DNA of 64,000 nt, taken from NCBI GenBank assembly GCA_963576725.1, contig OY755240.1, forward strand, positions 58,218,633-58,282,632. Direction: 5' to 3'. Positions 3,817-64,000 of the stretch are shown one piece after another. This stretch comes from Azorinus chamasolen. Lineage: Eukaryota; Mollusca; Bivalvia; Cardiida; Solecurtidae. The position numbers and the translations under genes are program-made. Numbering within the stretch: the first letter of the stretch is position 1; each line of letters opens with the position of its first letter. The notes beneath the pieces were generated by a model that ran no database searches, had not been told where the DNA came from, and saw nothing but the letters and a program-made list of their open reading frames with translations.

Positions 3817-3836
3817 AGTTTGCGAGAGGAGTTTAA

Positions 3837-13795: not shown

Positions 13796-13975
13796 TGGGT
13801 CCATGCTTATAAAGCTTTTAGTTGAGTCTGAGATCGTTTTCAAGCTTTTGATTGGTCAGATTTGAGCCTTTGGCTCAAATCTGACCAATCAAAAGCTTGA
13901 GAACTCAAATCTGACCAATCAAAAGCCTGAGAACGAAACTCAGACTCAACTAAAAGCTTTATAAGCATGGACCCA
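13796..13975. repeat. Long inverted repeat, ~75-bp arms
   Basis: TGGGTCCATGCTTATAAAGC at the left is the complement of the right end. The inner arms (AAGCTTTTGATTGGTCAGAT) are present twice on the right side, so the hairpin has a partial internal duplication. Confidence 0.9.
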
Positions 13976-14810: not shown

Positions 14811-14879
14811 TCGGAACATGTAAAAATGTGCAATAATTTTAAGTCTGGTCATAACATAAAACAACATTAACTTTCTACT

Positions 14880-16194: not shown

Positions 16195-16200
16195 TACTCT

Positions 16201-16245
16201 ATGATGGTATGCTCTTAAACTTGGATACAGGAGGAGCTTACCAGA
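16201..16245 (+). promoter_or_regulatory. SECIS-like hairpin in Naiad 3' UTR, copy 1
   Basis: ATGA at 16201-16204, stem strand TGGTATGCTC, TT, AAAC in the apical loop, returning strand GAGCTTACCA at 16234-16243, then GA. This gives the UGA/GA quartet, a 10-position helix with one U-U mismatch, and AA 12 nt after ATGA, which are the defining features of a eukaryotic selenocysteine insertion element. It starts 7 nt after the stop codon. Copies 2 and 3 keep the same elements. Confidence 0.7.
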
Positions 16246-16820
16246 CTCATGTATTACTTTTTCCCTGTCGTGCCCTTAACGGCTTACCTGCAGGTGCTCT
16301 GACTTAAGCAAAGTCATTGAGTACATATTTGACGGTTTGTCACAGTTATTATGCTATGTTTTACATGTTGTCCTGTGTTAACCGTCGTCTATGTTGTGGG
16401 TAAGTCCAGCGGGGATACCTTTATTTACAATATTTGTAAAGCTAGGGTGACTTTGAGAGAAGTGTGAGGTTAGGACGTCCGTAAACCGGTTTAAACCCCC
16501 AGTGGTGTTTTTGCTACTGACCGTGCCAAGGCGGTACTCTCTTTGTCACCCTTCCTTTTGTTTGCCTTGCGTCTTTGTGCTTGTGGTTTGTTCAAGTTGT
16601 GGAACGTTTGTCCCTGTTTCTTGTGTGTCTGTTGGTGTTTTCTGTGTTCATTTCGTGTGTGTGTGTGCGTTTGGGTGTGTGGTTGTGTGTGTGTGTCATG
16701 CTGTCTATCGGTGTTTTGATGGTGGTTGCGTCTTGCATGTGGCTTTGCCTGCTTGACTTTACTACTTTTCCATTTATGTAAGACGTTTTTAGACTATATG
16801 TCTTGTCATAGTATTGTACG

Positions 16821-17364: not shown

Positions 17365-17651
<287 letters not shown>

Positions 17652-18284
17652 CGTACGTGTGTTTGTGACCGTTCATCAACTCCATACTATCGTATATAGT
17701 GTCGCAGTTCCCTAGACCCAGCCCAACCGAGATATACCTTTCGGTACGTTTTGTGACGCTATGTCTGACCTTACTCTTGCAACAGTTATGGCGTTAAATC
17801 TTGTCTTTTGTTTCAATTAATTCGATTCAGGTTTGGTTACGCACTGCCGGTGTTGAGCAGACACATTGAATGTCATTTATATATTTCTGAGTGTGGACTT
17901 CGTTTCTTCTTCTAGTGTTGATGTGGACTTTCCTAAATCATTTCCTAATTTCTTATGTAAACATCTTTTAAGTGGTTGTTGTTGTTGAATAGTTTCACTG
18001 AATATATATCTGGTTTTAGTTCAGTAATACTGGCTTTCAACGAATTGATTTGGGCGCCTACAGGGACAAGTCTCACCTTATATCCAAAATATCAGCATTA
18101 TAATTCGATATGAGAGACTCAAACACTGCTTCTGCGATCAAATATCTGCATGAAAAGGTAGCGATCAAATGCAATATACGACAGTATCGGTATGTTTTAA
18201 TTTACTCTTATCCCGCTATGTCTGCTCAAATTATGATACAGAAGAACCTGTCTAAAGCGGCCAGCCAAATGATAAATCAATTCT
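17652..18284. other. No gene seen
   Basis: A segment near 17700-17745 (GTCGCAGTTCCCTAGACCCA) resembles 14770-14810, inside the Naiad-derived fragment. The rest is unrecognised intron-like sequence. Confidence 0.4.
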
Positions 18285-26230: not shown

Positions 26231-27547
26231 GGCAATACTTAAGGTTGAATGACTGTGCTTATAGGTAGAATAACATATCTTTAAGACATTGTAGCCCCCA
26301 CATGACATTTGGGAAATGGAATGACACTGTTGTAAAGTGGAATGACAGTTATTATAGGTGCAATGACATATTTGTGAGACATTGTAGCCTCCATATGACC
26401 TGTTCGAAATGGAATGACACTGTAGTAAGCCCAAATGACAGTTATTATAGGTAGAATGACATACCTTTGAGACATAGTAACCCGACATGACCTTTTCGAA
26501 ATGGAATGACACTATTTAAGGTGGATTGAGAGTGCTTATAGGTGCAATAACATATTTCAGAGATTTTTAGCCTCGATATGACAGTTGGGAAATGGAATGA
26601 CACTGTTGTAAAGTAGAATGACTGTAGTTTTAGGTGGAATGACATATCTTTGAAACATTGCAGCCCCCATAAAACATTTTGGAAATGGAATGACACTGTT
26701 GTAAGGTGGAATGACAGTTATTATAGACGGAATGATATAAGTTTTTGGAATTGTAGTCCCTATTATGACCTCTTGGAAATGGAATGACACTATTTGAAGT
26801 TGAATGACAGTTATTATAGGTGAAATGACATACATTTGAGACATTTTAGCCCTTTTATGACATTTTGTAAATGAAATGACACTATTTAAAATGGAATTAC
26901 AGTGCTTATAGGTTGAATGGTATACTGCGGAGTCTTTTAGCCACGATATTACCTTTTTGAAAAGGAATGACACTGTTGTAAGGTGGAATGACAGTTAGTA
27001 TAGATGAAATGACATATTTTTGAAACTTTGTAGCTCCCATATGTCCTTTGGTAAATGGAATGACTTTGAAGCCCCGATATGACATTTGGGAAATGGAATG
27101 ACACTATTGTAAGGTTGAATGACAGTTATTATAGGTGGATTGACATACTTTTGAGGCATTGTAGCCCCTATATGAACATTTGGAAATGGAATGACACTAC
27201 CTAAGATTGAATGCAAGTTCTTATTGGTGGAATGACACGATCCTGAGACTTTGTAGTCCCCATTTGACCTTTTGGAAATGGAATGACACTGTTGTAAGGT
27301 AGAATGACAGTTATTATAGGCGAAATGACATACTTTTGAGACATTGTAGCCGCCATATGACCATTTTGGAAATGGAATGACACTATTTAAGGTGGAATGA
27401 CAGTGATTATAGGTGGAATGACGAATTTCTGAGACTTTGTAGCCCCGATATGAACTTTGGGAAATGGAATTGCACTGTTGTAAGGTGGAATAACAGTTAT
27501 TATAGGTAGAATAACATTTCTTTGGGACATTGTAGCCACAATAGGAC

Positions 27548-28346
27548 TTTTTCTAACTTTTACTATCGAAATCTCTCGCTTACAGGCAAGTACCAATCTA
27601 ATCTCAAGGAGCTTCTGCGACACGGTGTTTCATATCCTGAATTTTATGGTGATGAGATTTACAAAACTTCGTAAAATTATTGGACATACCTATTTTCTCA
27701 CTTTGTTCATCAAATATGTTAAAAAAATTCATTAAAAAGGGATATGATCCTGTAATACTACAACATACTGCATGTTTGGTAGTCAACCCTTTTATAGTTG
27801 GCAATTACTCTGGCCTCTTTGCATGTACGCCGACAAGAAAGGTTTAGTACTCTTTGAAGGCGACCTCTTAAATCCAGAAATGGGAGGAGAACGTCGGATA
27901 TCTGTTCTATTTCGTTTTTGTCGTACCCTTTATTACTTTTCTACAGTTACTCTGTTTGCAGCTCAATCATTGAGTACACTAGCGATATGTGGATACAGTT
28001 TGTTCACTTAGATGTTTTCGTTATACATGCACTTTCCCACTGTATTTACCGTCGTGGTTGTTGTAGATTAGTCAGAGAGGGGATACGTTTATTTACACTG
28101 TTTGTCTTTTAGGGTGGGAATGGAATAAGTGTAAGGTTTGGCGCCCATAAACCGGTTTAACACCCCGGTGACTTTTTTCGATGACCGTTTCAAGGCGGTG
28201 CTTCCATCTTCCCCCTATTGTGTGTTTGTTTTGTCTTTGTGCGTCTCTTGTTTTTTTTATAGTTATGTACATTTGCTTGTGCTGCTGTTCGGGCGACCGT
28301 TTGTTCTGTATGTGGTGTTTCCTGCATGACTCATTTTTGTACTTTT
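27548..28346 (+). mobile_element. Naiad copy 3, old 5'-truncated insertion in the satellite
   Basis: Starts inside the RT thumb region (TTTTACTATCGAAATC); the product has PEFYGDEIYK, then KKGYDPVILQHTACLVVNPF and LFACTPTRKV before TAG. At least one single-base frameshift (near 27660). The 3' UTR is diverged but aligns to copies 1 and 2, including AAACCGGTTTAA and CAAGGCGGT. Satellite resumes at 28347. Confidence 0.85.
27854..27898 (+). promoter_or_regulatory. SECIS-like hairpin, Naiad copy 3
   Basis: TTGA, stem strand AGGCGACCTC, TT, AAA, returning strand GAGAACGTCG, then GA. Compared with copy 1, two adjacent stem pairs have changed on both sides (U-A to C-G and A-U to G-C), while UGA, AA and GA are kept. 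This covariation supports the fold. Confidence 0.6.
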
Positions 28347-30230
28347 AAGAAATGGAATGACACTTTTGTAAGGTGAAATGGCAGTTATTATAGACGACAT
28401 GACATACGTTTGAGACATTGTAGCCCCTATTTGACCTTTTGGAAATGGAATGTCACTTTTGAAGGCGGAATGACAGCTTATCGGTGGAATTACATACTTC
28501 TGACAATTTGTAGCCCCCTTATGACCTTTTGGAAATGGAATGACACTGTTGTAACCTGGAATGACAGTTATTATAGACGGAATGACATACTTTTGATACA
28601 TTGTAGTCACCATATGACCTTTTGGAAATGGAATGACATTGTTGTATGGAGGAATGACAGTTATTATAGGTGGAATTACATACTTTTGAGACATTGTAGC
28701 CCCCATATGACCTTTTGGAAATTGAATGACACATTTTAAGGTGGAATGACAGTGCTTATGGGCGGAATGACATACGTTTGAGACACTGTAGCCCCATATG
28801 ACCTTTTGGAAATGGAATGACACTACTTAAGATGGAATGACACTGCTTATAGGTAGAATGACACACTTCTGAGACTTTGTAGTCCCCATTTGACCTTTTG
28901 GAAAGGAAATGACACTGATGTCAGGTAGAATGAGTTATTATAGGCGGAATGACATACTTTTGAGACATTTTAGCGGCCATATGATCATTTGGAAATTGAA
29001 TGACACTATTTAAGGCGGAATGACAGTGCTTATAGATGGAATGACATACTTTTGAGACTTTGTAGCCCCGATATGACCTTTTGGAAATGGAATGACACTG
29101 TTGTAAGGTGGAATAACAGTTATTATAGGTATAATAACATATCATAACACTATTTAAGGCGGAATGACAGTGCTTATAGGTGGAATGACATACTTTTGAG
29201 ACATTGTAGTCCCAATATGACATTTGGGAAATAGAATGACACTTTTGTAAGGTGGAATGGCAGTTATTATAGACGGAATGGCATACTTTTGAGACATTGT
29301 AGCCCCATATGTCCTTTTGTTAATGGAATGACACTGTTGTAAGGTGGAGTGACAGTAGTTATAGGTGGAATGACCTATCTTTGAAAGAATAAAGCCCCCA
29401 TATGACATTTGGGAAATGTAATGACATTGTTCTATGACGGAATGACAGTTATTATAGGCGGAATGACATATTTTTGACACATTGTAGCCTACATATGACC
29501 TTTTGTAAATGGAATGACACAATTTAAGGAGGATTGACAGTGCATATAGGTGGGATGACATACTTCTGAGAATTTGTAGCCCCCATTTGACCTTTGGGAA
29601 TATTAATAACATTGTTATAAGGTGGAATGACCGTTATTACAAATGACATCACTTTGAGACAATGTAGCCCCCATATCACATTTGGGATATTGAATGACAC
29701 TGTTGTAAGGTGAAATGTAATTGATTATAGGCGTTATAACGTACTTGTGAGATATTTTAGCTCCCTTATGTCATTTTGGAAATGGAATGACACTATTTAA
29801 GGCGGAATGACAGTGTTTATAGATGGAATGACATACCTCTGAGTTGTTGTAGCCCCCATTTGACCTTTTGGAAATAGAATGACACTGTTGTAATCTAGAA
29901 TGACAGTTATTATAGTTGGAATGACATACTTTTGAGATACAGTAACCGCCAAATAACCTCTTGGAAATGAACGACACTATTTAGGATGGAATGACAGTGC
30001 TTATAGGTGGTATAACATACTTCTGAGACCTTGTAACCCCGATATGACTTTTGGGAAATAGAATGACACTGTTGTAATGTAGAATGACAGGTTGTTATAG
30101 GTGGAATGAGAAATTCTGAGACATTGTAACCCCCATATGACATTTTGGAAATCGAATGACACTGTTGTAAGGTTGAATGACCGTTATTATAGATGCAGCC
30201 CCGACATAACCTTTGAGAAATTGAATGACA

Positions 30231-33200
30231 CAGTGTCATTTCATTTTATAAAGGTTATATCGTGGCTAAAATGCTTTAAAGGTATGTCATTGCATCTATA
30301 AACACTCTCATTCGCCCTTAAATAGTGTCATTTCATTTCCAAAAGGTCATATTGGGGCTACAATGTCAAGAAGTCTCGGAAGAATGTCATTCCACCAATA
30401 ATAACTGTCATTCTATTTCCAAAAGGTCATGTGGGGCTACAATATCTCATAAGTATGTCATTCCACCTATAATAAATGTCATTCCACCTTACAACAGTAC
30501 CATTCCATTACTCAAAGGACATATTGGGCTACAATGTCTCAAATACATGTCATTTCATCTATAATAACTGTCATTCCACCTTACAACAGTGTAATTCCAT
30601 TTCAAAAAGGCCATATCTGGGCTAAAACGTCTCAGAAGTATGCCCTTCCACCTACAAGCACCGTCATTCCACCTTAAATAGTATCGTTCTATTTCAAAAA
30701 GGTCATTTGGGGGCTACAATGTCTCAAATGTATGTCATTCCACCTATAATAACTGTCATTCTACATCAAATAGCGTCATTCCAATTCCAAAAGGTCATAT
30801 GGGGGCTACATTGTATCAAGACTATGTCCTTCTGTCTATTATAACTGTCATTCCACCTAACACCGGTGTCATTCCATTTCCCAAATGTCATATCTGGGCT
30901 ACAAATATAATCACCGTCATTCCTTCTTAAATAGTGTCATTTCATTTCCAAAAGGTCATATGGGGCTACTATGTTTCAAAGGTATGTCATTCTACCTATA
31001 ATAACTGTCATTTCACCTAACAACAGTGTCATCAGTCCGTCTATAATAACTGTCATTCCATCTTACAACGGTGTCATTCCATTTCCCAAAGGTCATATAG
31101 TTCCACCTATAACTACTGTTATTCCACCTTAAATGGTGTCATTTCTTTTCCAGGAGGTTTTATGGAGGCTACTATGTCTCAAAGGTATGTTATTCCACAT
31201 ATAATAACTGTCATTCCACCTTAAAACAGTGTCATTGCATTTCCCAAATGAAATATCGGGGTTACAAAGTCTCAAAGTATGTCATTTTACCTTTAAGCAC
31301 TGTCAGTCCACCTTAAATAGTGTCATTCTATTTCCAAAAGGTCATATTGGGCTTAAAATGTCTCAAAAGTATGTCATTCCGCCTATAATAACTGTCATTA
31401 CACCTTACACCAGTGTCATTCTATTTCCTAAAATACATATGGGGGCTACAATGTCTCAACAAATATGTCATTCCATCTATAATAAATGTCATTCCACCTT
31501 ACAACAGTGTCATTCAATTTCAAAAAGGTCATATCGGGGCTAAAAAGCCTCAGAAGTATGTCATTCTACCTATAAGCACTGTCATTCCACCTTAAAGAGT
31601 GTCATTCCATTTCCAAAAGGTCATATGGGGGCTAAAATGTTTAAAAGATATGTCATTCCACCTAAAATAACAGTCATTCAACTTTACAACAGTTTATTCC
31701 ATTTCACAAATGTCACATGGGGGATATACAGTATCAGAAGTATGTAATTCCATCTATAAGCACTGTCATTCCACCTTTAGCAATGTCATTCCATTTCAAA
31801 AAGGTCATATGGGGACTACAATGTCTCAAAAGTATATCATTCCGCTTATAATAACTGTCAGTCCACATTACAATAGTATTATTCAATTTCCCAACTGTCA
31901 TATTGGGCCTACAATGTCTCAAAATGTCTCATATCATCTATAATAAGTGTCATTCCACCTTACAAGTGTCATTCCATTTCAAAAAGGTTATATTTGGGCT
32001 AACAGTCTCAGAAGTATGTCATACCACCTATACGCACAGTCATTCCATCTTAAATAGTGTTATTCCATTTCAAAAGTCATAAAGTGACTACAATGTCTCA
32101 AAAGTATGTCATTCCACCTATAATAACTGTCATTCCTCCATAAATAGTGTCATTCCATTTCCAAAATGTCATACGGGGTCTACTATGTTTCGAAAGTATG
32201 TCATTCCGTCTCCAATAAGTGTCATTCTACCTTACAACAGTGTCACCTTAAAACATTGTCATTCCATTTCAAAAAGGTCATATTGGGCTTAGAATGTCTC
32301 AAAAGCATGTCATTCCACCGAATAATAACTGTCATTTCACCTTAAAACAGTGTCATTTCATTTCCAAAAGGTCATATGGTGACTAAAATGTCTCAAAGGT
32401 ATGTCATTCCACCTATAAGCACTGTCATTCCATCTTAAATAGTGTCATTCCATTTCCAAAAGGTCATAAAGTGGCTACAATGTCAGAAAAGTATGTCATT
32501 CCACCTATAATAACTGTCATTCCACCTCAAATAGTGTCATTCCATTTTCAAAATGTCATATGGGTCTACGATGTCTCAAAAGTATGTCATTCCGTCTATA
32601 ATAAGTGTCATTACCTACCTTACAACATTGTCATTCCATTTCCTAAAGGTCAAATGGGGGCTACAAAGTCTCAAAAGTATGTCATTTCACCTATAAGCAC
32701 TGTCATTCAACCATAAGTAGTGTCATTCCATTTCCAAAAGGTCATATGGGGTTAAAATGTCTCTAAGGTATGTCACTCCGCCTATAATAACTGTCATTTC
32801 ATTTTACTTCAGTGCCATTCTATTTCCCTGAAGACATGTGGGGGCTACGATGTCTCAAACGTATGTCATTCCATCTATAATAACTGTCATTTCACCTTAC
32901 AACAGTGTCATTCCATTTCAAAAAGGTCATATCGGGGCTAAAAAGCCTAAGAAGTATGTCATTCCACCTACATGTTTAGCAGGTTCATTCCTGATTAAAT
33001 AGTGTCATTCAATTTCCAAAAGGTCATACAGGGGCTACAAAGTCTCATAAGTATGTCATTCCACCTATAATAACTGCCATTCCACCTCAAATGGTGTCAT
33101 TCCAATTCCAAAAGGTCATATGGTGGCTACAATGTCTCAAAGGTATGTCATTCTCTCTATAATAACTGTAATTCCACCTTACAACGGTGTCATTCCATTT

Positions 33201-33564
33201 CCTAAATGTCATATAGGGGCTACAATGTTTCATAGATATGTCATTCCACCTTACAACAGTGTCATTCAGTTTTCAAAATGTCATATTAGGGCGACAAAGT
33301 CTCAGAAGTATATCATTCCACCTATAAGCACTGTCATTCCACCATAAATAGTGTCATTCCATTTCCAAAATGTCATATGGGGTCTGCTATGTCTCAAAGG
33401 TATGTCATTCCACCGAATAATAACTGTCATTTCACCTTAAAACAGTGTCATTTCATTTCCAAAAGGTCATATGGTGACTACAATGTCTCAAAGGTATGTC
33501 ATTCCACCTATAATAACTGTCATTCCATCTCAAATAGTGTCATTCGAATTCCAAAAGGTCATAG
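30231..33564 (+). repeat. 92-93-bp satellite, right (forward) array
   Basis: Same unit as the left array but on the plus strand. It meets the left array without spacer at GAATGACACAGTGTCATTTC. Continues after the LINE at 37469. Confidence 0.95.
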
Positions 33565-36500
33565 ATAGATAGATAGTTTATTCAGTACAAAGGCCATGGG
33601 CCCAACAGTACAGGATAGCAATACATACATATAAATGTAGTTTAGAACTGTCAACAGTAGATTAAATGGAATGAAAACATTCATTTCAAATCAAACAAAA
33701 ACTATGAGTCTGAGCATACTGTTAGAGGAAAATGATAACAGAAATTGAAGAGGAAATATAATAAAGAACATGTCAGCATTGACCGCATGTTTCTATGAAA
33801 AGGTAAGGGAGTTAACTCTTTATAGTAACAACCACGAAAACTTGAGCGACTCAGTGAGTTACATGTACGGTTATTGTACATGCATAACAAAAAAATGTAG
33901 ATCCAATGACAAACTGAGAGATGATACACATTCAATAAATTACATAAACGTTAATTCGGTTCTACGTTTAAAGCATTTTTGGACATAGATAGCAAGTTTC
34001 TTTAACACGTTTTGATTTTCTGTTTTCATGAGATTTACAAACTTAGGTATGTTTGGGTGACGCCAAAAGTATGGTTTTATGTACAGTTTTCTTAGATCGT
34101 TGTATATAGAACATTCCAACAAAAAATGAAATTCGTCTTCCAGAACATTACATACATGACACTTCCTCTCATTTCTTGGGATTTTCTGAGGTTTGTGCCA
34201 GCGGCCTGTTTCTACATTTAATCTATGAGACGACAGACGGAGTCTAGTTAAATCTCGTCTAAATTTTTCAATCTTTACTGTATCTAAGTATAGTTTGAAT
34301 CCAAAATCAGAGAACAATCTATAACTATCTGCACGAGAGGATGTATTAATTTCGGCACTCCAGTTTTGAATGAATTGATCAGTCAGTCTGTGCTTACATA
34401 GCCTTATAAAGCATTCAATATTACCTACACCTTGATTTAACCATGCATATCTTAGTCCAAGCGATTCTAATAGAACTTGTACTTTCGACGCCCAAGAAGC
34501 TCTGCATATCTTCCAGCATTAAATTATAAATTCCTTTTATGTATTTCCTGTCAGGGTTTTGTAATAGTTTAATCCAATATCGAATTATTGCAATATGTCT
34601 ATGTACTTTTAGATCGGTTCTTCCTAATTCGCCGAATACGAAACTATTTTGTGTCTGTTGTCGTACTCCTAGAATTTGTTTGCAATATTTTAAATGAATT
34701 CTCTCTGTCTTGTTATCTCTGCTAAATCCCCAAACTTCACAACTGTAATTAAGAATAGGTAATATAAGTTTATCAAATAGATCTAGTGTATGTTTAATAG
34801 AGATGTTTGCGAATTTGCGTAGATATGATTGTAGCTTGTAAATTGCCTTTGCAGCTTGGCCACTAAGAGCCGATTGAGTCTCTTTAAATGACCCACCGGT
34901 TGTAAAAATTACACCTAAGTAACTGAATTTGTTCACAATTTCAATATTTTTATCATCAAAAGTAAACTTAAATTTTGAAGAGTTTGAGAATCCTTTATGG
35001 AATATCATAATCTTTGTTTTTTCGGTGTTTACTTTGAGCTTCCATCTCTCACAGTATTCATGCAAAATGTCTAAGCCAGACTGCAGATCACTTTCAGACT
35101 CAGCAAACAGGAGAACGTCATCGGCGTATAACAATATAAAAAGTTTCAGCATTCCAATGTCCAAACCCTTATACCCTTTTAATATGAAAACCTCCTCTAG
35201 ATCGTTAAGATACATGGAAAATAGGAACGGTGAGATACATTCCCCCTGAGCTACACCCAAAGTACACATGAAATCCTCACTTAAACAGTTTTGATATTTA
35301 ACCTTAGATCTAAGATTCTTGTACATTGATTGAATTACGTTAATTATCTTTCCCCTCACTCCGTATTTCAAAAGTTTGTACCAAAGCACGTCTCTGACTA
35401 CGAAATCAAAAGCTTTTCTGAAATCAACAAAAGTTACAAAAAGTTTTTTATTATCATTTAAAAGGTGGGTTATCAAGCCATGGAGTACAAAAATATTGTC
35501 AACCGTACTCATGTTTTTCCGAAATCCAGCTTGAGCCTCAACGTAAACCTGATACTTTTCTGCCCAGTTATTTAGTCTTGTGTTAAGAATTTTTGTAAAG
35601 AGTTTACCCAGAGTGCTTAGTAAAGTGATGCCACGGTAATTTTCAGTGTCGTTCACGTCTCCCTTTTTGTATAGTGGAATAATATAACCCTCTGACCATT
35701 TTTCGGGATAAGATCCACTATCAAAGATAACATTAAACAATTTTACTAGATATGCAATTAACGAGTCTATGCCATGCTTAAAAAATTCATTTAGTATGTA
35801 ATCAGGGCCACCGGATCTACAATTATTCAATTCTTTACATGCTTTACGGATCTCCCCCTCAGTTATACAAATATTTAATTCAGAAAACATTTCTTGAAGT
35901 TCACCATCCAAATATCTTTCATTGAAATGTATAACATCTTCGTCAGGTTGAAATAATGCAGAATCTGGGTTGTTGATTGCTTTAAAATAGTCTAAAAAAT
36001 GAGATGTATCTAATGTAGATGAAGATTGTTTTTGCGTTAATCCTTTCAACAATTTCCAATATTCCTTTGCATTTTTATATCGCAGTGATTCTAACTTGCT
36101 TGTTTGTTTTCTGTCATATAAATATTTCTTGTTTCTTAAAGTTGATTTATAATCTGTTCTGGCGGTAGTCATTGAAATACGGGATTCTTCACACTGATCC
36201 TGTCTATAAGCATTTAATTTTTCATAGAAATTATTTTGTTTGTGTTTACATTCGTAGTCATACCATATTTGTCTCCCTTTCTTTATCCTACTTGTTTCCG
36301 CATTATCACTATAAGTATTTGACTTAAAAAGAGGATCACAAACATTACTTAAAATTGTATAAAACTGATTCAAATTTGAGTCAATATCTTGGGAAGTTTT
36401 GGCATCTTTTAAATCGTTCTCAATATCAGTTAATCTATTTCTGACACTGTCACTGTCTAAAATATTCTTATAAACCTCGCATTTATTTAGATCCCAAATA

Positions 36501-37468
36501 TATTTAAATTCTACTTTTTCATATTCTACATCTTCACCACGACACACATCTACAGATTTCGCACAATTTGTCTTTAACCCAATGTTTATCGCACAATGAT
36601 CGGAAAGAATATTAGGATCACCTACTTCAAAATGACTAAAGAAATCAAACAATGAACTTCTACACAATACATAATCTACCACACTGCATCCAGACGCCTT
36701 AACACATGTGAATTTACCCTCGCTCGCATCTTCGCACACCCTACCATTTACTATTCTGAGTCCCGTCTCTTTACAAAATTCTAATAAGCATAATCCAAAA
36801 TCATTTACACATTTGTCTTGAGAGTTTCGTTTTACATGTGTATCTTCACCATAGTCATCTGGTAATAACTGGAAGTTTACAAGGGTTTCATATTCAACAT
36901 AGTCTAGCCTCTCACCGGTCCGGCTATTGAAATCACCAGTAATAAAAAAATCACATTGTCCAAATTGATTTTCAAAGTTTATAATATCTTCAGTCAAAAT
37001 ATCAAAAATGTTTCTCTCAAGTAATGCTTGTCTACCACTTCCTATGGGTATATTGTATACTAAACATAAAATCAAATCATTCTTCATACTGATACGTTTC
37101 GCTTCAAGTTTTAACCATAAAATACTATCACTATCTGATTTCAATAGCATGTCCTTTGAAACTAGTCTATTTGCAACATATACCATTATACCACCACTAT
37201 CTCGGCGGCTATTTTTGTGCTTAAAATCCCTATGGAGAGCGAAACATGTAAACCCTCCACTTCATAGTCAAACTGTTCATTTGACCACGTCTCTGTGAAT
37301 AAAAGTATATCATTTTTCTGAAATAAATTTTTTAATTCAGCTGAATTCAGTTTATTGTATCTTTTACCTATTAAACCTTGTACATTTAGAAGACAAAAGT
37401 TTATTATATCATTTTCCTCTGATTTTTCCTATTGAGCATTGCCCTGAGCGGCTTCCGGGATTTCAGAT
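33565..37468 (-). mobile_element. APE-type LINE inserted in the satellite
   Basis: The satellite hexamer GTCATA is present at both ends (33559-33564 and 37469-37474) as target duplication. The 3' end on the minus strand is a short CTAT repeat. It holds endonuclease, RT and C-terminal zinc-finger regions but no ORF1, so the 5' end is probably truncated. Confidence 0.88.
33940..37430 (-). pseudogene. LINE ORF2 (endonuclease-RT), two frameshifts
   Basis: From the 5' side: LLNVQGLIGKRYNKL and LLFTETW (catalytic Glu of the APE endonuclease) in one frame, a frameshift near 37243, then a 921-codon open frame with GDFNSRTGERLD and SDHCAINIGL (endonuclease Asp and His), FVDFRKAFDFV (RT motif A), GVAQGECISPFLF (motif B) and LLYADDVLLFA (motif C). 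A second frameshift near 34490 leads to the C-terminal part RLRLSSHRLNVETGRW and CHVCNVLEDEFHFLLEC, a C-x2-C-x7-H-x4-C zinc motif, ending at 33940. The protein nicks the target and primes cDNA synthesis there. Clade (I, Jockey or CR1 group) not decided. Length and motif integrity suggest a fairly young insertion. Confidence 0.88.
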
Positions 37469-38603
37469 GTCATATGGGGGCTACAATGTCTCAAATGTTT
37501 GTCATTCTGTCTATAATAACTGTCATTCCGACTTACAACGGTGTCATTCCATTTCCCAAATGTCATATGGGAGGCAACAATGTTTCATAGATGTCATTCC
37601 ACCTTACAACATAGTCAATCAGTTTCCAAAATGTCATATTGGCGCTTAAAAGTCTCATAAGTATGTCATTCCACCTATAAGCACTGTCATTCCACCATAA
37701 ATAGTGTCATTCCATTTCTAAAATGTCATATTGGGGTTACTATGTCTCAAAGGTATGTCATTCCACCTATAATAACTGTCATTCCACCTAAAACAATGTC
37801 ATTCCATTTGCAAAAGGTCATATGGTGACTACAATGTCTGAAAAGTATGTCATTTCGTCTACAACAGTGTCATACCATTTCCTAAATGTCATATCGTGGC
37901 TACAATGTCTCAAAGAAATGTTATTCTACCTATAATAACTGTCAGTCCACCTAGCAACAGTGTCATTTCATTTCCAAAAGGTCATATCGGGGCTACAAAG
38001 TCTCAGAAGTATGTCATTCCACCTATAAGAACTGTCATTTCACCTTAAATAGTGTCATTATATTTCCAAAAGGTCATATGGCGGCTACAATGTCACAAAA
38101 GTATGTCATCTCGCCTATAATAAGTGCCATTCTATCATACAACATTGTCATTTCATTTCGAAAAGGTCACATGGGGGCTACAAAGTCTCAGAAGTATGTC
38201 ATTCCACCTATAAGCACTGTCATCCCACCTTAAGTAGTGTCATTCCATTTCCCAAAGGACATATGGGGGCTAAAACGTCTCAAAAGTATGTCATCCCGCC
38301 TATAATAAATGTCATTCTACCTTACAACTGTGTCATTACTTTTCCAAAAGTTCAAATATGGGCTACAAAGTCTCAGAAGTATGTCATTCCGCATAAAAGC
38401 ACTGTCATTCCACCTTAAGTAGTGTCATTCCTTTTCCAAAGGACATACGGGGGCTAAAACGTCTCAAAAGTATGTCATCCCGCCTATAATAACTGTCTTT
38501 CTACCTTACAACAATGTCATTCCATTTCCAAAAGGTCATACGGCGGCTATAATGTCTCAAATTTAGGTCATTCTATCTATAACCATTGTCATTCTATCTT
38601 ATA
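37469..38603 (+). repeat. 92-93-bp satellite, right array continued
   Basis: Same orientation and unit types as 30231-33564. Alternation of the two types continues, and units decay towards 38600. Confidence 0.93.
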
Positions 38604-38605
38604 AC

Positions 38606-38969
38606 AAACTGAATGACAAGGGACCAGTCATTGTAAAAATACTACCTGTCATTCGTCATTCCATTTTAACTCGTCATTCGTTTTAGGGAGTCCCAGAGTT
38701 ATGGCCCTTGTTATGGCCCTCATCATGCGTCTTCAATGTGTGAAGTTATAATGAAAACATTTTGGAGATATGGCCCGGACACGAAGCGTGACAGACGGAC
38801 GGACAGACGGACGGACAGACGGACAGACGAAATCGAGCAAACCTATAGTCCCCCAACCTTTAACCGGTGGGGGACTAACAAACTGAATGACAAGGGACCA
38901 GTCATTGTAAAAATACTACCTGTCCGTCGTCATTCCATTTTAATTCGCCATTTGTTTTAGGGAGTCCCT
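38606..38969 (+). repeat. SINE-like insert with GACG tail, flanked by ~90-bp direct repeats
   Basis: ACTGAATGACAAGGGACCAG begins both flanks (38612 and 38884). Between them lie ATGGCCC repeats, AGACGGACGGACAGACGGAC and CTATAGTCCCCC with GGTGGGGGACTA. The tail resembles those at 43770 and 54010. Confidence 0.7.
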
Positions 38970-49425: not shown

Positions 49426-49930
<505 letters not shown>

Positions 49931-50322
49931 TATATATCTTTCTATCTACCCATGCAACCATCCGTCCATCCATTCATCCATTCATCAATCCGTTCACCCA
50001 ATAACCAACCCACACTCACAATGACCTACTCACACACGCACACATCAACCCAAACCCCAATCTCACCAATTGTACTCTGCAGTAAGCGGCCACATGTCTT
50101 TAATACATGTATTCCTATTAATACATTAATTCTTCGTTACTAAATGTTCTTAGTATCGCGTTTAATAAACAAATATTTAAGTGTCATGACTGCTGATAGA
50201 TATGACCATTTTGTAAACGATAAACTATAAATCTGTGTCATTGTACTTTACCAAGGAAGAGATTGAAATTATGTGTGTGATCAACCATTTACCTCAACAT
50301 TGATAGTGTCCTCTCATTTCAG

Positions 50323-50427: not shown

Positions 50428-50566
50428 GTAACCGATTAATAAACTCGAATGCCAATATATTTAAAAATGTCTCATCAGGCGAAATTGAAACAATATATAC
50501 AAACAGTATGGCAATACAAAAAACAAACCAATATAGTTCTTATATATTTACGTACATTTGTTTCAG

Positions 50567-50890
50567 GAATGATGCCAAGTAGTTGGCCCGATGGACCTTA
50601 CGCTTTGCTCATGCCGTTAACTGGATGTCCCGAGGACAAACTCTACGGCTGGAGTCCAGGTCATATCAATATCACCACTCTGCAACCGATGGAAATATGG
50701 ACTAAGCATAATAAAGCAATGGCTTTAGTTCCATTATCGGAAACACCTTCGAAACTGGCCGGACCGTTGGGAAGCTACACAATACAGTTTAACTTTTGTT
50801 TTAAACATGCAGGATGGCCATTACAACAGGAAACTAGTTGGCCAACACCAGGAATCAGCGTTTTCGGAGTTCATGATGGATGTCCAGAAG
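50567..50890 (+). CDS. EGF/ApeC secreted protein, exon 3 (ApeC-like domain)
   Basis: Acceptor TTTGTTTCAG, donor GTAAAA at 50891, 324 bp, phase 1 at both ends. The product opens SSWPDGPYALLMPLTGCPED and later has FNFCFKHAGWPLQQ, TSWPTPGISVFG and DGCPEG. The pattern W-P-x-G-x-Y-x-L-x-M-P-x-x-G-C-P, then F-x-C-x-K, then W-P with a second C-P-x-G, resembles the apextrin C-terminal (ApeC) domain, recognised from memory of the family and not by a search. ApeC proteins of invertebrates are secreted; some amphioxus members bind bacterial cell-wall sugars and act in immunity. Here it follows a signal peptide and an EGF-like module, so the protein is probably extracellular; a role in microbe binding is only inference. 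The domain is incomplete at this exon end and continues in exon 4. No stops or frameshifts, unlike the neighbouring D8C/vWA gene. Confidence 0.7.
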
Positions 50891-52596
50891 GTAAAACAAG
50901 CAACATTTTAAATGACAACACACGCTTTTTGTTTTGTTGGTAGCAAGCTTTGATAATTCTAGACTGTGTACAGTCCGAAGTTTGGTCTTGGAAAATCTGT
51001 TAAGGCATATGAATATCGTTTGATCACTGGTATCCTGTTCGGCATGTTGACAAATCTTATTCTTATTTATCATAATTCAATTTACAGATGTCTTCCACGT
51101 AGTATTTGATATTTTGATGATGCAATGAAACACAAATCAAATTTATAAATGTCATGTGCATTCTTTATAAGAAAAGAAAAATCAAACTTCACATGTACCT
51201 TCTTTCGATGTAATTATATTTTTAAATTTCTATGTCAACCAGCCGAAATTCCTTGAAAAATCAGCGAAGCGTAACATACACAAACTTAGCCTGCAACTCA
51301 TAATAAAAAAGAAATATCTTTTAAAAATATATTCAGCGTCATTCAAATATTGACATAATAATATCTGCCATATTAAAGTCAATGTTTGGAGATTTTATAG
51401 TACAGGGAACTAGATCTATGAAGGGTTGCTTTTTATTATATTAGCAGACAGTCGTGCAATAGAAATGACTTAAAGAAAAGAAAGATCTACTATTTCATTC
51501 AATATACTTTATGGTTGTATCTTTTTATTAGTAAATTCGGAGATGTTGGTTAAATATACTGCAATGAGTTGGAGCCTTAGTCTGTCTGCATATTTTGTTT
51601 TAAGCCGATTATAATGTTCTGAAAAAGAATAAGCGGACAGTCGAAGAAACACTTATTGAATATTTTCAAGTAACTTGAAATGCAAATCAACCACAACAGC
51701 TCTGCACAGATGTCTTTAGATGACCGCCGAAAAATGTCTGAAGCACGTTCGGAGTATTATTCGCGTAAGAATTCATATTATGAAGCCCGTATATTTATAT
51801 TGATATGAAGATAACAAATTGGACGCACTTTAAAGAATGCAGAAATCGATTTTTGTTTGTGCAGAGTCGGTAATTACTTAAAGAACGGCATTTATCTAGC
51901 CGAGATCAACACATTAATCGACTTGTGTTCATGATTATTAACCAAATCTATTTCTTAAACAATATACAGTTAGCAACCTCAACCTACTTCAATGATCCAA
52001 AGTCCAAGTGATAGAGTCGTAGCACACTCACCCTCAGTAGTTTATTTATATCACAGAGAGCCAACAACCCCGAGCCTATGTGTTGTTCTCGGGAATAGTA
52101 ATTAATACTATTGATGCCACTTCTTTAATATATTAAACAACATTTCTTCTTTATTTCCTGTGGTTATCGCCAGTAGATTATTGTGGTTTCCTCAAACTAC
52201 CGGTTTGTCAAAATGGATTTAATGATCAAATGTGGTATTTAAATTGACAGCAAATTGATAATATTATTTTAAGTTTGATAGTGGTTTTGTCAAACTGTTA
52301 ATAATGTTAACCAATTATAACTCTGAGGTGATAAGAAAGATAATTGGTTTTGAACTGGTATAAATTGTAGCACCAGTTTGTTGGTATTGTAAAAATTATC
52401 ATTTATTTATTAATAATACATTCATGTATTGTAATTATAACATTATTTATTTGTAATAATTTATCATACGTATATTTAATCGTTTTTGACACTATTATTA
52501 AAGAGATTTTATTTATACCTTTTTCCTTCTTAAATGATGAAGCAAAGACCAACGATAATATGTAATAGGCCATTCGATGAAGATGATGAAGATATT

Positions 52597-55348: not shown

Positions 55349-57153
55349 GTTGTGTAATATTCCGTTTATTATATACCTGTTTGAATAAAAGAACACATAA
55401 GAACATCAATAGTCTTATATTCTAACTCATTTTATTCAGAGACATTTCGTTACTAAACATAGACGCATTTCCGGTGCGTCACGGAAATTGACGGCTATTG
55501 CTATACATAAAAACTGTCTGGGTGGCATATTCATATATTGTAGCATTGTTTAATAATATTGTAGATCGTAGTTTTATTACTTTCGTTTGGATGTTATTGT
55601 ATTGAAACGAGGATTGCATAAATTCATAAATTATATACACGCTAATTATATCTGTACGCTAATCGATATACTCAGGGAGCCAATAGTGCCTACCGTGCAC
55701 CCCCCCCCCCTCCCCTAAGACTTTTTTTCATGGGTACCAAAATGTTCAGAAAAGTGTCTTGAATCAGAATCACGAATGTACTCAAACTTAAATTCTTTTA
55801 GGCTATGTGTATTATAACCGTTCCCATGGCAACCCCCCAGTTTTCGTAATGATGACCCATACCTTCAAATTCGACCATAGCACAGCCAGTTTTTGTCCTA
55901 AAACTATAAAACTGGTACCAAATAGAAGATAAGACATTGTGCTTTTATTTCTAACTTGTTTTTTTGAATTACCTTCTTTGCATACTCATGAATATTAATG
56001 AGAACATTAAAAATAGTAAAAACAATATAAAAATAACGTAAATAATGTAAACTATTCACTTTTTATCCTACAAATATCAGAAAACAATTTCAAATGCAGT
56101 TTAACCTGATGACAAAATCCTCAGAAAACAAAATATCAAATTTGAGGACCAAAACTTTTTAACTGTTTCCTTAGTAACCATTCATTTCACTCTGTTCAAA
56201 CAGTTTTTGTTAGTCGACACCTACCTGCAAAAATCTTCCATATCACAGGAAGTATTTGTGCTAACTGCATAAAACTGGTACCAAATTAAAGCGAAGACAG
56301 TGTGCTTTGGTTTAAAAGCTATAATTAGGAATTACCTTATTTGTATGGACATGAATATTAATGAGAATAATTAAAAAAATAGCAAAAAAAATACAGAAAT
56401 AACGTAAACCTCTCAATTTTTATGCTACCAATATCAGAAAACAACTTCAAATGTAGTTTAAAATGATGACAATATACTCAGAAAGCTAATCATCTTAATT
56501 GATACACAAACAATGAATTGTAAGTAATATTATAACGGTTTCCATGGTAACTGATCCTTTCACAAATTTTGGAAATTTGACATCCAATTGTAATACTCCG
56601 CTAGATCTCGGTTATTTTTGATGAATCATGAAATCATTTGTTACAAACATAGATATGAGGCATTGCTTTAATAGTAAATATTACTTTTCAGATATAAACT
56701 AATTTGCAAATGTATGAATATTTATGAGAACAGTAATAGATGTTGAAATTTTCGACAGACACCAGTCTTTCTCTTATAAAGCTAACAAATATGGAAAATG
56801 GTTAGCTAAAGTTTACTATGATCACTGAATATCACCAAGATTATTAGATAAATAAATTTGGGACACATTATATAGCACTGATAGTGATATATCTGTTTCC
56901 TAGGCAACCATTCTAACCTCATTGTTCATATTACAGAGTGTTTACATACCTGCAACATACAAAGATATTGCTGCCTTCTTGGGCGATAATTATAAATGAT
57001 ATAAACATATACCCGGTAGTTGATGTATGAATCTTAATGTAAATAGGTTCACTTTATGCAAATTATATTATTTGCATCCTTATGAATATTAATTAGTGAT
57101 AAGAAAACAAAGAGAAACAATATTGAAAATAACATGTTTCGCAGTATACATGG

Positions 57154-57208
57154 TGGTGGTTGCGTCTTGCATGTGGCTTTGCCTGCTTGACTTTACTACT
57201 TTTCCATT
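57154..57208 (+). mobile_element. 55-bp Naiad 3'-terminal fragment
   Basis: TGGTGGTTGCGTCTTGCATG to ACTACTTTTCCATT, identical to the last 55 bp of Naiad copy 1. It lies in the left arm of the large element; the right arm lacks it, giving the empty site. Confidence 0.9.
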
Positions 57209-58331: not shown

Positions 58332-60906
58332 TGTTGATATACCATAATCGGGCGAGAACTGGCTAGACTCACCGACATAGATGTGAAAAAATATTTCTGC
58401 CTTGCAGCTTCTAATCGTAAGGAATCAAAGGATTGTAGCAATTATTAGTGGTTCACATAGACCCAATAATGCAGATTGATATAGGTGAGACAGACAAATC
58501 AAAGGGTCTTAAAACACATCACAGGATTACCAGTTCTCGACAGATGATGGTATATTAAAAGTCGAAACAGTCTTGAAACCCTGAATTCAATGGGATTTAA
58601 AATCACTGACACTTTAAAAACAATAACAGAAGATTGTTTGGGATATCATAAGTACTTGGCTTTCAACAGTTACCATGGAAGCAGTACATGGTCAATTTGG
58701 TAACAGTCTTAGACATAAAATTTATTTATTCATCATCAAAAGGTACATTTATTATTGCAAGCTATACTTGGAGCATGGTGTAATGTTGTGCTCGGCATAC
58801 TGCGAAACATGTTATTTTCAATATTGTTTCTCTTTGTTTTCTTATCACTAATTAATATTTATGAGGATGCAAATAAGGTAATTTGAATAAAGTGAACCTA
58901 TTTACATTAATTCATACATCAACTACCGGGTATATGTTTATATCATTTATAATTATCGCCCAAGAAGGCAGCAATATATTTGTATGTTGCAGGTAAATAT
59001 GAACAATGAGGTTAGAATGGTTGCTTAGGAAACAGATATATCACCATCAGTGCTATATAATGTGTCCCAAATTTATTCATCTAACAATCTTGGTGATATT
59101 CAGTAATCATAGTAAACTTTAGCTAACCATTTTCCATATTTGTTAGCTTTATAAGAGAAAGACTGGTGTCTGTCGAACATTTCAACATCTATTACTGTTC
59201 TCATAAATATTCATACATATGCAAATTAGTTTATATCAGAAAAGTAATATTTACTATTAAAGCAATGCCTCATATCTATGTTTGTAAAAATTGATTTCAT
59301 GATTCATCAAAAATAACTGAGATCTAGCGGAGTATTACAGTTGGATGTCAAATTTCCAAAATTTGTGAAAGGATCGGTTACCATGGAAACCGTTACAATC
59401 TTACTTACAGTTCATTGTTTGGGTATCAATTAAGTTGATTGGCTTTCTGGGTATTTTGTCATCATTTTAAACTACATTTGAAGTTGTTTTCTGATATTGG
59501 TAGGATAAAAATTGAGAGGTTTACATTATTTCTGTAATTTTTTGCTATCTTTTAATTATTCTCATTAATATTCATGTGTATGCAAATAAGGTAATTCCTA
59601 ATTATAGGTTTTAAACCGAAGCACACTGTCTTAGCTTTAATTTGGTACCAGTTTTATGCAGTTTGCACAGATACTTCCTGTGATATGGAAGAGTTTTGCA
59701 GGTAGGTGTCGACTAACAAAACTGTGTGAACAGAGTGAAATGAATGGTTACTATGGAAACAATTAAAAAGTTACTCAGAGTTAAATGTTTGGTCCTCAAA
59801 TTTGATATTTTGTTTTCTGAGGATTTTGTCATCAGATTAAACTGCATTTGAAATTGTTTTCTGATATTTGTAGGATAAAAAGTGAATTTACGTTATTTCT
59901 ATATTGTTTTTACTATTTTTAATGTTCTCATTAATATTCATGAGTATGCAAATAAGGTTATCTAACTGGGAATAAAAGCACAATGTCATATCTCCAATTT
60001 GGTACCAATTTTATATGTTTTGGACAAAAACTGGCTGTAATATGGACGATTTTGCAGATACGGACCATCATTACGAAAACTAGGGTGTTGCCATGGAAAC
60101 GGTGAAAATGGTGCTTAAAATTAATGCTATGGTCCTCAAATTGGATATTTTGTTTCCTGTTTTTTTTTGTCATCATGTTAAACTGCATTTGAAGTTATTT
60201 TCTGATATGTGTAGGATAAAAAAATGAAAGGTTTATGTTATTTCTATACATTTTTTTTTACTAATTTTAATGTTCTCATTAATATTCATGAGTATGCAAA
60301 TAAGGTAATTGAAAAGAAACAAGTTACAAATAAAAGCACAATGTCTTATCTTCCATTTGGTACCAGTTTTATAGTTTTAGGACAAAAACTGGCTGTGATA
60401 TGGGCGCATTTGTAGGTATGGGTCATCATTACGAAAACTGGGGGGTTGCCATGGAAACGGTTAAAATACACATAGCCTAAAAGAATTTAAGTTTGAGTAC
60501 ATTCGCGATTCTGATTCAGGATACTTTTCTGAACATTTTGGTACCCATGAAAAAAGTCTAGGGGTGCACGGTAGGCACTACTGGCTCCCTGACTAATACA
60601 CACTGTTGTTTACATTGTATTAATAAAGATAGACGCGTCTCCGGTGAGTCACACAAATTTACGGTTATTGTCGAGCCACTTTTCCACATGAAAATACATT
60701 TTGTTTCTGAGAGGTTGTATTGCGTGATCGCACACAATCGTATTTTACTGCAGAAACTGACAGGTATATAATAAATATGATTATCTCAATGTGTATTCCC
60801 AGTTCAAATGATATACTCAAGAAATAGGGTATTTATATTAATCGTTTTAGTTAAAGATATGTCAGCTGCTTGGTGATAACACCGGTGATTGCAATTTTAT
60901 TTTCAG

Positions 60907-61005
60907 GAATGACCGAAGAGGAGCATGTGATATTCCTACCTCCAATCAGATCATGGTGGTACGATGGCTATTTGCCATACTTCTCCATACGCGAATTAGA
61001 TAACG
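60907..61005 (+). CDS. EGF/ApeC secreted protein, exon 4
   Basis: Acceptor TTTATTTTCAG, donor GTATGT at 61006, 99 bp, phase 1 at both ends and therefore compatible with exon 3. Encodes MTEEEHVIFLPPIRSWWYDG, then YLPYFSIRELDN. Joined to exon 3 it continues the second CPxG segment of the ApeC-like domain. The final part of the domain, with the usual terminal cysteines, must lie in a further exon that is not in the window. Naiad copy 2 starts at 61030, only 25 bp past the donor, so the next exon is at least 3 kb away. Whether the gene is still correctly spliced is not known. Confidence 0.65.
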
Positions 61006-61540
61006 GTATGTATGAGGTTTTTCCTCTTCAATGGAAAAGCAGTAAAGTCAAGCAGGCAAAGCCACATGCAAGACGCAACCACCACCAAAACACCGATAGA
61101 CAGCATGACACACACACACACACAACCACACACCCAAACGCACACTCACACACACGAAATGAACACAGAAAACACCAAAAGAGACACAAGAACCAGGGAC
61201 AAACGTTCCACAACATGAACAAACCACAAGCACAAAGACGCAAGGCAAACAAAAGGAAGGGTGACAAAGAGAGTACCGCCTTGGCACGGTCAGCAGCAAA
61301 AACACCACTGGGGGTTTAAACCGGTTTACGGACGTCCTAACCTCGCACTTCTCTCAAAGTCACCCTAGCTTTACCGCTGGACTTACCCACAACATAGACG
61401 ACGGTGAACACAGGACAACATGTAAAACATAGCATAATAACTGTGACAATCCGTCAAATATGTACTCAATGACTTTGCTGAAGTCAGAGCACCTGCAGGT
61501 AAGCCGTTAAGGGCACGACAGGGAAAAAGTAATACATGAG

Positions 61541-61585
61541 TCTGGTACGCTCCTCCTGTATCCAAGTTTAAGAGTATACCATCAT
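61541..61585 (-). promoter_or_regulatory. SECIS-like hairpin in Naiad 3' UTR, copy 2
   Basis: ATGA, stem strand TGGTATACTC, TT, AAAC, returning strand GAGCGTACCA, GA. The U-U mismatch of copy 1 is a U-G pair here, with one A-C mismatch next to it; all core elements are kept. Confidence 0.65.
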
Positions 61586-61591
61586 AGAGTA

Positions 61592-64000
61592 CTACCCTCG
61601 GCCTGTCATCGCGCAAGCAAAGAGGGAAGCGTAGCTACCGACTGTAAAAGGGTCGATAACCAAACATGCAGTGTGTTGCAATATAATAGGATCATAACCT
61701 TTCTTTTTAAATGTTTTAATGCGTTTTATAAACAAATCATGAAAATGGATATGACCCCGAATTTTCCTAAGTTTGTAGATAACATCCCCTTAAAATTCTG
61801 GTTGAGAAATGCCTTGTCGCAGTAACGTCCGTAGATTGCAATTATATTTACTAATGAGAGGTAAATTTCGATAATAAAATTTAGAAAAGGTTTTCCGAAG
61901 TTTGTGATATCTGTAACCTTGCTTAAGAAGTTTATCAGTTATAACTAAATTACGTCTGTTAAAATCTTCAAGCAAAGAACAGGCTCGGGCAAACCTAATA
62001 AGTTGAGAAATATAAACACCATAAGATGTAGAACGTGGCACATCCCCATCTAGAAAAGGATAATTAACAATTTTAAAATTAAAATCTTCTCTTTTATCGT
62101 ATACTTTGGACGAAACTTTATCATTTGTAATTGAAAGATTCAAATCTAAAAATGAAGCATTAATGTCAGATTGATTAGCTTTGTTTAAAGACAGTTCTTT
62201 TGGGTAGATTGAAGAAACCATAGTATCAAAATAAGGATGATCTAAATTCAAAATATCGTCTAAATACCTTGAGGTTTTATTAAAAGCATTAACAATATCG
62301 GTCTGTGTATCAGGTTTTAAGCTAAGCATAAAATCCCTCTCGTAGCAATACAAAAACAAATCTGCAACACGAGGGGCACAATTTGTACCCATGGGTATAC
62401 CAACAACTTGACGATATATGGTATCTCCATAACGCACAAATATATTATCTAAAAGAAAGGTAAGAGATCTACAAACATCAAGGCAAGTCCACATTGTGTA
62501 ATGTTCAACTTCTGAATTCGAAAAGAATGAACGTTGAACATTACAAGCAATGAACATTTTGTTTTCTCTGGCAAAGGTTTTTTCTATTAATTTAATAAGT
62601 CTATCCTTTATAAGATGGTGAGGTAGAGTAGTATAGAGTGTAGATAAATCATACGAGCTCAGTAAAGAAATGTTATACTGTTCATTTTCAAGTTTTGTTA
62701 AAACATCATTTGAATTTTTTATGGACCAAAAAACATTAATACCAGAATTTTCATATATTTTATCACAGTAGCGTTTAACATGTTCTTTGATCGTAGTAAG
62801 ACAGGACGTCAAAAGTATAGATAATTTAGTAGTGGTACAACAGCTAGAGTTTGCAATAAAACGCGACTTATAAGGGTTTTTATGTAGTTTCGGAATCCAG
62901 TACAAAGTAGAAAGTTTACGTTGTTTTATGTTAGGACCAGACTTAAAATCATTGCACATTTTTACATGTTCCGAGACTATATCTTTTTCAGGTGTTTGAA
63001 CTGTTATATAAGTTTTTGAATCAGTTAGCTCCTTCTTTAAAACATCAACATAATACAATCTTCAAATAATGATTACATTGTTTGATGCCTTGTCAGCAGG
63101 AACAAGAACATAATCTGAATGAAAATTAGAAATGTTTTTCTTCAAGTAGCGAAATGTAACTCTAGGTCGAGGTGGTAAAAGATGGTTATTTGATTTGTAA
63201 AAAGTTATTCGTGTATCAATAATATCGAAAATACATTTCTTCCAATCCGAAAGGGCATTAACATCAGCATGTTCTCGTCGACACCATTTGATGCAGAATT
63301 CTTGAATAGCTTCCGCAATATGAGTTCGACAAGCGTCAAAATCAATAAGGGAAGGTAATCTATATTTAGGTCCTTTAGTTAGAAGGGTCCTGAGACGTTT
63401 ATCCTTAATGATATCAAAATTACCAGTAATGACATGACCAACTGGTTTATAGCAAAAGCTAGAAATGCTACAATCTCAAGAAATAGGGGTATTAACATCA
63501 ATATTTAAGTCAGAGACAATTTTATTGTAGTTCAAAATAACATTTCTAATAGGTTTATTATATTTATAACAGATGATAGGTGATTCAGAGTTGATGAAAT
63601 ATTTGGGAATAGCATCGATTACATTCTTATCACGAAATATACTTTGAATATCAATAAAATCGATACCTTTATTTAGGAACTGAAGTTTCAGAAAATGTCT
63701 TTTATGTTCAGATTCTTTATCAATACGTGGACGAAGAACATGCTGTGTGTAACTTTGTATGTGAGGCAGTATTAATTAACGGATCTGTACGCATATAGAT
63801 TTTATCAGCCTCTTCGTCTATTGACTTAAGACAGGAAAAGGGTAAAGACGACAATCAAGATAACATAGAATGTTTACCAGTTTGTTTTAGAATAGTATGT
63901 AAATCATGAATAGACATATTACGACGTAATTTACGCTTAATATTACCATTTCTACGTCTACCATGTGATCTACTTTTACGTTTTCGAATAGAAAATATAG
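61592..64000 (-). pseudogene. Naiad polyprotein: basic region, UxC linker, RT; candidate selenoprotein
   Basis: Reading the minus strand: a basic N-terminal part (RKRKSRSHGRRRNGNIKRK) with TGA at 63857-63855; a one-base frameshift near 63776; RPRIDKESEHKRHF, then TPIS, TGA (63478-63476), DCSISSFCYKPVGHVITGN; KGPKYRLPSLIDFD; VLVPADKASNNVIII, TGA (63064-63062), RLYYVDVLKKEL; RT with YDLSTLYTTLP, GIPMGTNCAP, YLDD and the thumb region. At 61792-61790 a Tyr codon of copy 1 is TAA; the homologous C-terminus ends at 61592. About 735 codons upstream of that TAA contain three stops, all TGA. The second stands in the CxC linker motif of Naiads (here U-x-C); the third stands where relatives usually have Cys (from memory). 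Naiads with several selenocysteines are described from clams and spiders. The copy is dead through the frameshift and the TAA. Confidence 0.8.

Follow-up and report, generated by a model that had tools for sequence, protein, structure and literature searches.

The 64,000-nucleotide stretch of the Azorinus chamasolen genome analyzed here (hereafter, the window) ends in a damaged copy of a Penelope-like element of the Naiad type, which encodes a reverse transcriptase (RT). We hold with considerable confidence that this is a decayed copy from a family whose open reading frame (ORF) encodes a selenoprotein, with selenocysteine (Sec) at two of three TGA codons. Comparison with related proteins gives good support for the decoding of these two codons, at 63478 (site 2) and 63064 (site 3), as Sec by the family. 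In working members, the host machinery would insert Sec at two UGA codons, one opening the CxC linker motif (site 2) and one at the entry to the RT (site 3), under the direction of a SECIS hairpin; this hairpin would begin at the stop codon that ends the ORF itself and hence travel with the element.

Naiads are defined by an RT of the Penelope/telomerase type, a CxC linker and an N-terminal GIY-YIG endonuclease, and their further features include pseudo-LTRs, an insertion-in-fingers domain and a bias toward insertion into microsatellites. Naiads with several selenocysteines were reportedly described in clams and spiders by Craig, Yushenova, Rodriguez and Arkhipova in 2021 (Mol Biol Evol), and the window copy would therefore add to the known selenoprotein Naiads. 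It resembles these in its telomerase-like RT, its CxC linker, its Sec candidates at Cys sites and the GIY-YIG domain present in relatives, but differs in that it is broken and its GIY-YIG portion would lie beyond the window. To our knowledge, mobile elements rarely encode selenoproteins. An element carrying its own SECIS signal would deliver, with each full new copy, a complete selenoprotein gene dependent on host selenium, and telling Sec codons from nonsense mutations in a single broken copy shows how annotation cuts up such genes. A literature search of titles and abstracts returned, among the matches listed, none on selenoprotein Penelope-like elements; the 2021 Naiad paper of Craig et al. 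is cited in PMC11167929.

A broken Naiad copy at the window end

The element at the window end and its other copies in the window comprise the following features.

61592–64000, minus strand: Naiad-type ORF remnant (linker plus RT), recognized from reading frames, homologs and a telomerase-like predicted fold
63740–63765, minus strand: approximate place of a frameshift, where protein matches switch frame
61790–61792, minus strand: premature TAA; Tyr in relatives, TAT in copy 2
61592–61594, minus strand: TAG, the ORF's own stop, from frame and homologs; TAG also in copy 2 and in the relict
61030–61591, minus strand: 3' untranslated part, to the 3' end common to the copies, which align up to 61030
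14811–16774, plus strand: copy 2, 5'-truncated, 96.4% identical in alignment to the window-end copy
27546–28242, plus strand: diverged Naiad relict, 69–72% identical in two aligned pieces
57151–57208, plus strand: 58-bp copy of the element's 3' end alone, 98% identical in alignment

The ORF remnant extends past the window edge and is interrupted by a frameshift near 63760, a TGA at 63857 and a TAA at 61792, leaving this copy unable to make a full protein. We place the frameshift near 63760 because the 92 residues upstream of it match relatives that the main frame also matches, in the segment directly before that match (P0003, 51% over 79 residues; P0006; P0018). An earlier note on this DNA had correctly located TGAs at 63857, 63478 and 63064 on the minus strand, but had treated them as the only stops in a single frame of about 735 codons upstream of the TAA at 61792. 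Of the three, 63478 and 63064 are in frame with that TAA; the TGA at 63857 lies in another frame, and the frame of the TAA also holds a TAA at 63889, a TAG at 63820 and a TAA at 63778. Nor does the gene end at 61792, as had been assumed. The main frame continues for 65 codons up to the TAG at 61594; the TAA column is Tyr in 125 of 132 relatives among those listed (F in three, C in two, A in one and a gap in one); and copy 2 has TAT there. By this comparison the TAA is premature, and the TAG at 61594 is the true stop. The note had also reasoned that decay would have introduced TAA and TAG as well as TGA. With a premature TAA and a frameshift in the same copy, this argument fails.

The predicted model of the RT has a pLDDT of 93.1, and telomerases head both lists of similar folds; as predicted, then, the fold is closest to telomerase, which places the enzyme with RTs of the Penelope/telomerase type. 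Sequence identity to telomerase RT is about 10–14%, and a Naiad differs from telomerase in being a retrotransposon whose RT is linked, in relatives, to GIY-YIG. A Pfam search of the window frame did not find an RT, and searching the Protein Data Bank by sequence gave no match for this frame. The RVT_1 domain of one relative (P0077, residues 18–268) falls outside the part that matches the element (375–916) and was not counted as support. The CxC linker is present as TGA GAT TGT (U-D-C) at 63478–63470, in agreement with the placement of a TGA within this motif in the earlier note, and most informative relatives have CxC.

In relatives the GIY-YIG domain precedes the linker, and its place in the window-end copy would fall beyond 64000. 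When six relatives were scanned with the Pfam GIY-YIG model, P0150 scored at the cut-off (22.6 bits), P0216 scored below it and four had no match; P0255 has a precomputed PF01541 assignment. The motif YVGQT occurs within the first 140 residues of 16 of the 312 listed relatives, all of which start at the motif or at most 11 residues ahead of it, 12 of them as MQYVGQT. Such starts would be consistent with one more stop at the first Cys of the GIY-YIG CxxC, where a further Sec may exist, although P0180 runs past this point and P0216 begins on it, so that the sequences offer only a hint.

Relatives point to selenocysteine at two of three TGA codons

We read the residue at each TGA site from BLASTP alignments of 312 pooled relatives (120 of 994, 120 of 306, and 72 new among 120 listed of 1690), counting only informative rows.

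63476–63478, minus strand: TGA site 2, at the codon that opens the CxC linker motif (U-D-C, 63478–63470); candidate Sec, from relatives
63062–63064, minus strand: TGA site 3, Sec candidate at the RT entry, from relatives and the predicted model
63855–63857, minus strand: TGA site 1, in a different frame; judged from relatives, a probable nonsense mutation rather than Sec

Sites 2 and 3 alternate among Cys, the end of the ORF and W. Site 2 is C in 113 of 163 informative relatives among the 312 listed, the ORF end in 23, W in 19, S in four, L in two, and E and D in one each. At site 3, 170 informative relatives comprise 78 whose ORF ends exactly there, 69 with C, 22 with W and one with R. One of the three states is therefore found in 155 of 163 listed relatives at site 2 and 169 of 170 at site 3, which places the TGAs at 63478 and 63064 beyond chance. 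In all, 101 of the 312 listed relatives terminate exactly at the codon of one of these sites, and the ORFs of 28 begin two residues past site 3. In the predicted model, site 3 is residue 223, at the end of a strand and immediately ahead of a helix (224–237). Thirteen distant, long relatives (868–1326 aa, 36–40% identity) have Cys at both sites (P0243, P0245, P0248, P0249, P0251, P0252, P0255, P0256, P0257, P0262, P0270, P0274 and P0282). Taken with the residues at site 1, these rows identify sites 2 and 3, and not site 1, as positions of Cys or Sec. We count against a Sec family the other residues seen in a few relatives, namely S, L, E or D in eight of 163 at site 2 and R in one of 170 at site 3.

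The ORF ends in relatives presumably correspond to UGA, and W at either site may likewise be TGA in genes predicted with a code in which TGA is Trp. W at site 2 occurs in 19 proteins: 14 of them have W at site 3 as well, four lack coverage of that site, and P0221 ends exactly on it, which a plain TGA=Trp reading does not account for. In P0018 and P0020, W at site 3 is accompanied by C at site 2.

Site 1 behaves differently. Among the 312 listed relatives, 127 are informative there, and their residues are mainly R (42), K (27), L (11), F (8) and V (8), followed by A (6), T (6), C (5), S (3), I (3), Q (3), E (2), Y (1), N (1) and M (1). None of the 127 has an ORF end or W at this site; ORFs ending at site 1 would mostly be too short to become candidates, and the argument here thus rests on the residue letters and the absence of W. 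An in-frame UGA where homologs have Cys, the hallmark sought for a selenoprotein, is accordingly found at sites 2 and 3 and is lacking at site 1. Judged from these alignments, the TGA at 63857 is probably the product of decay at a variable, mostly Arg or Lys position in another frame. That all three TGAs are Sec codons, with 63857 a Sec of the window copy's lineage alone, strikes us as very unlikely: the five Cys include P0197, the row nearest to the window-end copy, but the other 122 relatives have different residues, the copy carries other damage (the TAA and the frameshift), and a single transition would turn the Arg codon CGA into TGA. Of the earlier proposal that the three TGAs occupy Cys-like positions, the part concerning 63478 and 63064 stands and the part concerning 63857 (Cys in 5 of 127) does not. 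The comparison of family codons that it recommended, made here on database relatives in place of copies from the same genome, gives the same division, against 63857 and for the other two.

Equally improbable, in our estimation, is plain decay, in which the Cys codons of a Cys-type element turned into TGA in the window copy. TGT and TGC are one change away from TGA, and this copy is broken in other ways too. Decay confined to one copy is opposed, however, by the relatives whose ORFs end exactly at these two columns (23 and 78) or that have W in them (19 and 22), and by a SECIS-like hairpin present in three copies.

A SECIS-like hairpin at the stop codon

The hairpin occurs in the window-end copy, in copy 2 and in the relict.

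61531–61593, minus strand: SECIS-like hairpin, beginning inside the stop codon; Rfam SECIS_1 23.8 bits, fold, covariation
16193–16255, plus strand: SECIS-like hairpin of copy 2; Rfam SECIS_1 30.6 bits, E 0.052
27846–27908, plus strand: SECIS-like hairpin of the relict; 14.7 bits, alignment and pairs

A scan of 60000–64000 with 4227 Rfam families ranked SECIS_1 (RF00031) first, at 61593–61531 (23.8 bits, E 0.23). Across the whole window, with E up to 10, SECIS_1 matched in only two places, this one (E 3.6) and 16193–16255 (E 0.052), and the two occupy equivalent positions in two Naiad copies. These E-values span all families; by arithmetic, those for SECIS_1 alone would be about 4000 times smaller. 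Several unrelated families elsewhere in the window have similar or better E-values, and in a scan of 151 bases of the relict a snoRNA family (16.3 bits) scores above SECIS_1 (14.7 bits). Because no SECIS_1 match in the window (30.6, 23.8 and 14.7 bits) reaches the family's gathering score of 35 bits, we refer to the hairpin as SECIS-like. The relict retains its hairpin adjoining its own TAG. Copy 2, being 5'-truncated, contains none of the three TGA sites.

The 76-nt hairpin stretches of the two copies have fold z-scores of −4.13 and −4.98, with 0 of 200 shuffles equally stable, and their 63-nt cores have z-scores of −2.11 (7 of 200 shuffles) and −3.31 (0 of 200). In an alignment of the three hairpins, 90.7% of cells pair, versus 37–54% with slid partners, and four pairs are compensatory, with both sides changed between subfamilies, versus 0–1 with slid partners. 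Because two of these rows are near-copies of each other, this covariation amounts to a single comparison between two subfamilies. Of 500 shuffles of the alignment's letters, 19 reached four both-sided pairs, 60 reached the observed share of paired cells and all 500 reached the observed number of pair types, which is thus not above the shuffles. A scan for a SECIS motif, designed after the hairpins were known and hence weak, found four places, two of which are the Naiad hairpins; 100 shuffles gave a mean of 0.95 and a maximum of 3.

The hairpin resembles eukaryotic SECIS elements of the SECIS_1 type in having a UGA/GA core, an internal helix, an unpaired AAA 12 nt from the core, an apical hairpin, and a location 3' of the ORF. 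It departs from them in starting at the stop codon itself, with its basal helix overlapping the end of the ORF. We propose that it works as a SECIS and that Sec would be inserted at sites 2 and 3. The earlier suggestion that the family uses Sec thus holds for 63478 and 63064, on the strength of the relatives and the hairpin in three copies, and is not upheld for 63857.

Among 712 codons of the window-end copy, the Cys-type codons comprise 14 TGT, seven TGC and two TGA, and this ratio of 21 to two argues against a general UGA=Cys code. Least probable of all is that UGA is read through without Sec, whether under an altered nuclear code or by some other readthrough device, and that template recognition is the role of the 3' hairpin: a hairpin adjoining the ORF could indeed serve the RT and its SECIS score is under the curated cut-off, but it has the SECIS-like UGA/GA core and apical AAA, TGA is limited to 2 of 23 Cys-type codons rather than spread as a changed code would have it, and a LINE ORF of 921 codons within the window is free of TGA.

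Possible exchange between Sec and Cys

A quick tree of 142 rows was built from the 93 columns before site 2, and 21 of its 139 inner branches are well supported. Changes between Cys and Sec on this tree number 19 at site 2 (137 labelled rows) and three at site 3 (112 labelled rows), at low support; counting well-supported branches alone, the Cys group at site 2 requires just two. The rows nearest the window copy are mixed at site 2, with ORF ends in P0197, P0202 and P0200 and Cys in P0121 and P0134. We tentatively suggest, at somewhat less than even chances, that Sec at site 3 settled in a large Naiad branch while the first Cys of CxC switched between Cys and Sec many times. If so, the Naiad family would provide a natural replicate series of Sec-Cys exchanges within one enzyme, and Naiad jumping would depend on host selenium.

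Related DNA and neighboring features

Two scans of viral contigs found no relative of the element, and a scan of genome contigs found three loci. One (L001; 2918–4850 of NYSS01000008.1) codes for a Penelope-like RT of the Cys type, with Cys at sites 2 and 3; its contig is filed as a Planctomycetota MAG and is probably eukaryotic contamination. In this single case of a Cys-type element, there was no SECIS match. A second (L002) has Cys at site 3, and the third (L003) covers merely about 30 residues. Naiad proteins also appear in bacterial assemblies, under Candidatus Thiodiazotropha MAG names (P0285 and P0299) and Campylobacter (P0039), and are probably host or other animal DNA. Candidatus Thiodiazotropha are symbionts of lucinid clams, which makes clam contamination likely for two of these relatives.

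Within the window, a 74-bp match to the 3' part of the element (70% identical) lies before copy 2. The diverged relict sits between blocks of a satellite of about 92 bp, whose large arrays at 26240–33563 and 37467–38606, in opposite orientations, flank the LINE ORF (34424–37186, minus strand). The latter encodes a LINE-type RT of 921 aa with RVT_1 (3.7e-35) and a weak Exo_endo_phos_2 match. An ApeC (apextrin C-terminal) domain at 50449–50940 on the plus strand (5.3e-9) is probably an exon of a host gene and, like the LINE, points to animal DNA. A strong, MITE-like inverted repeat at 13808–13963 has Rfam miRNA matches of 57.2 and 35.6 bits, below gathering scores. Simple repeats include 60 copies of a 42-bp satellite at 1262–3817, a TG run at 17367–17667 and a TATC run at 49429–49948.
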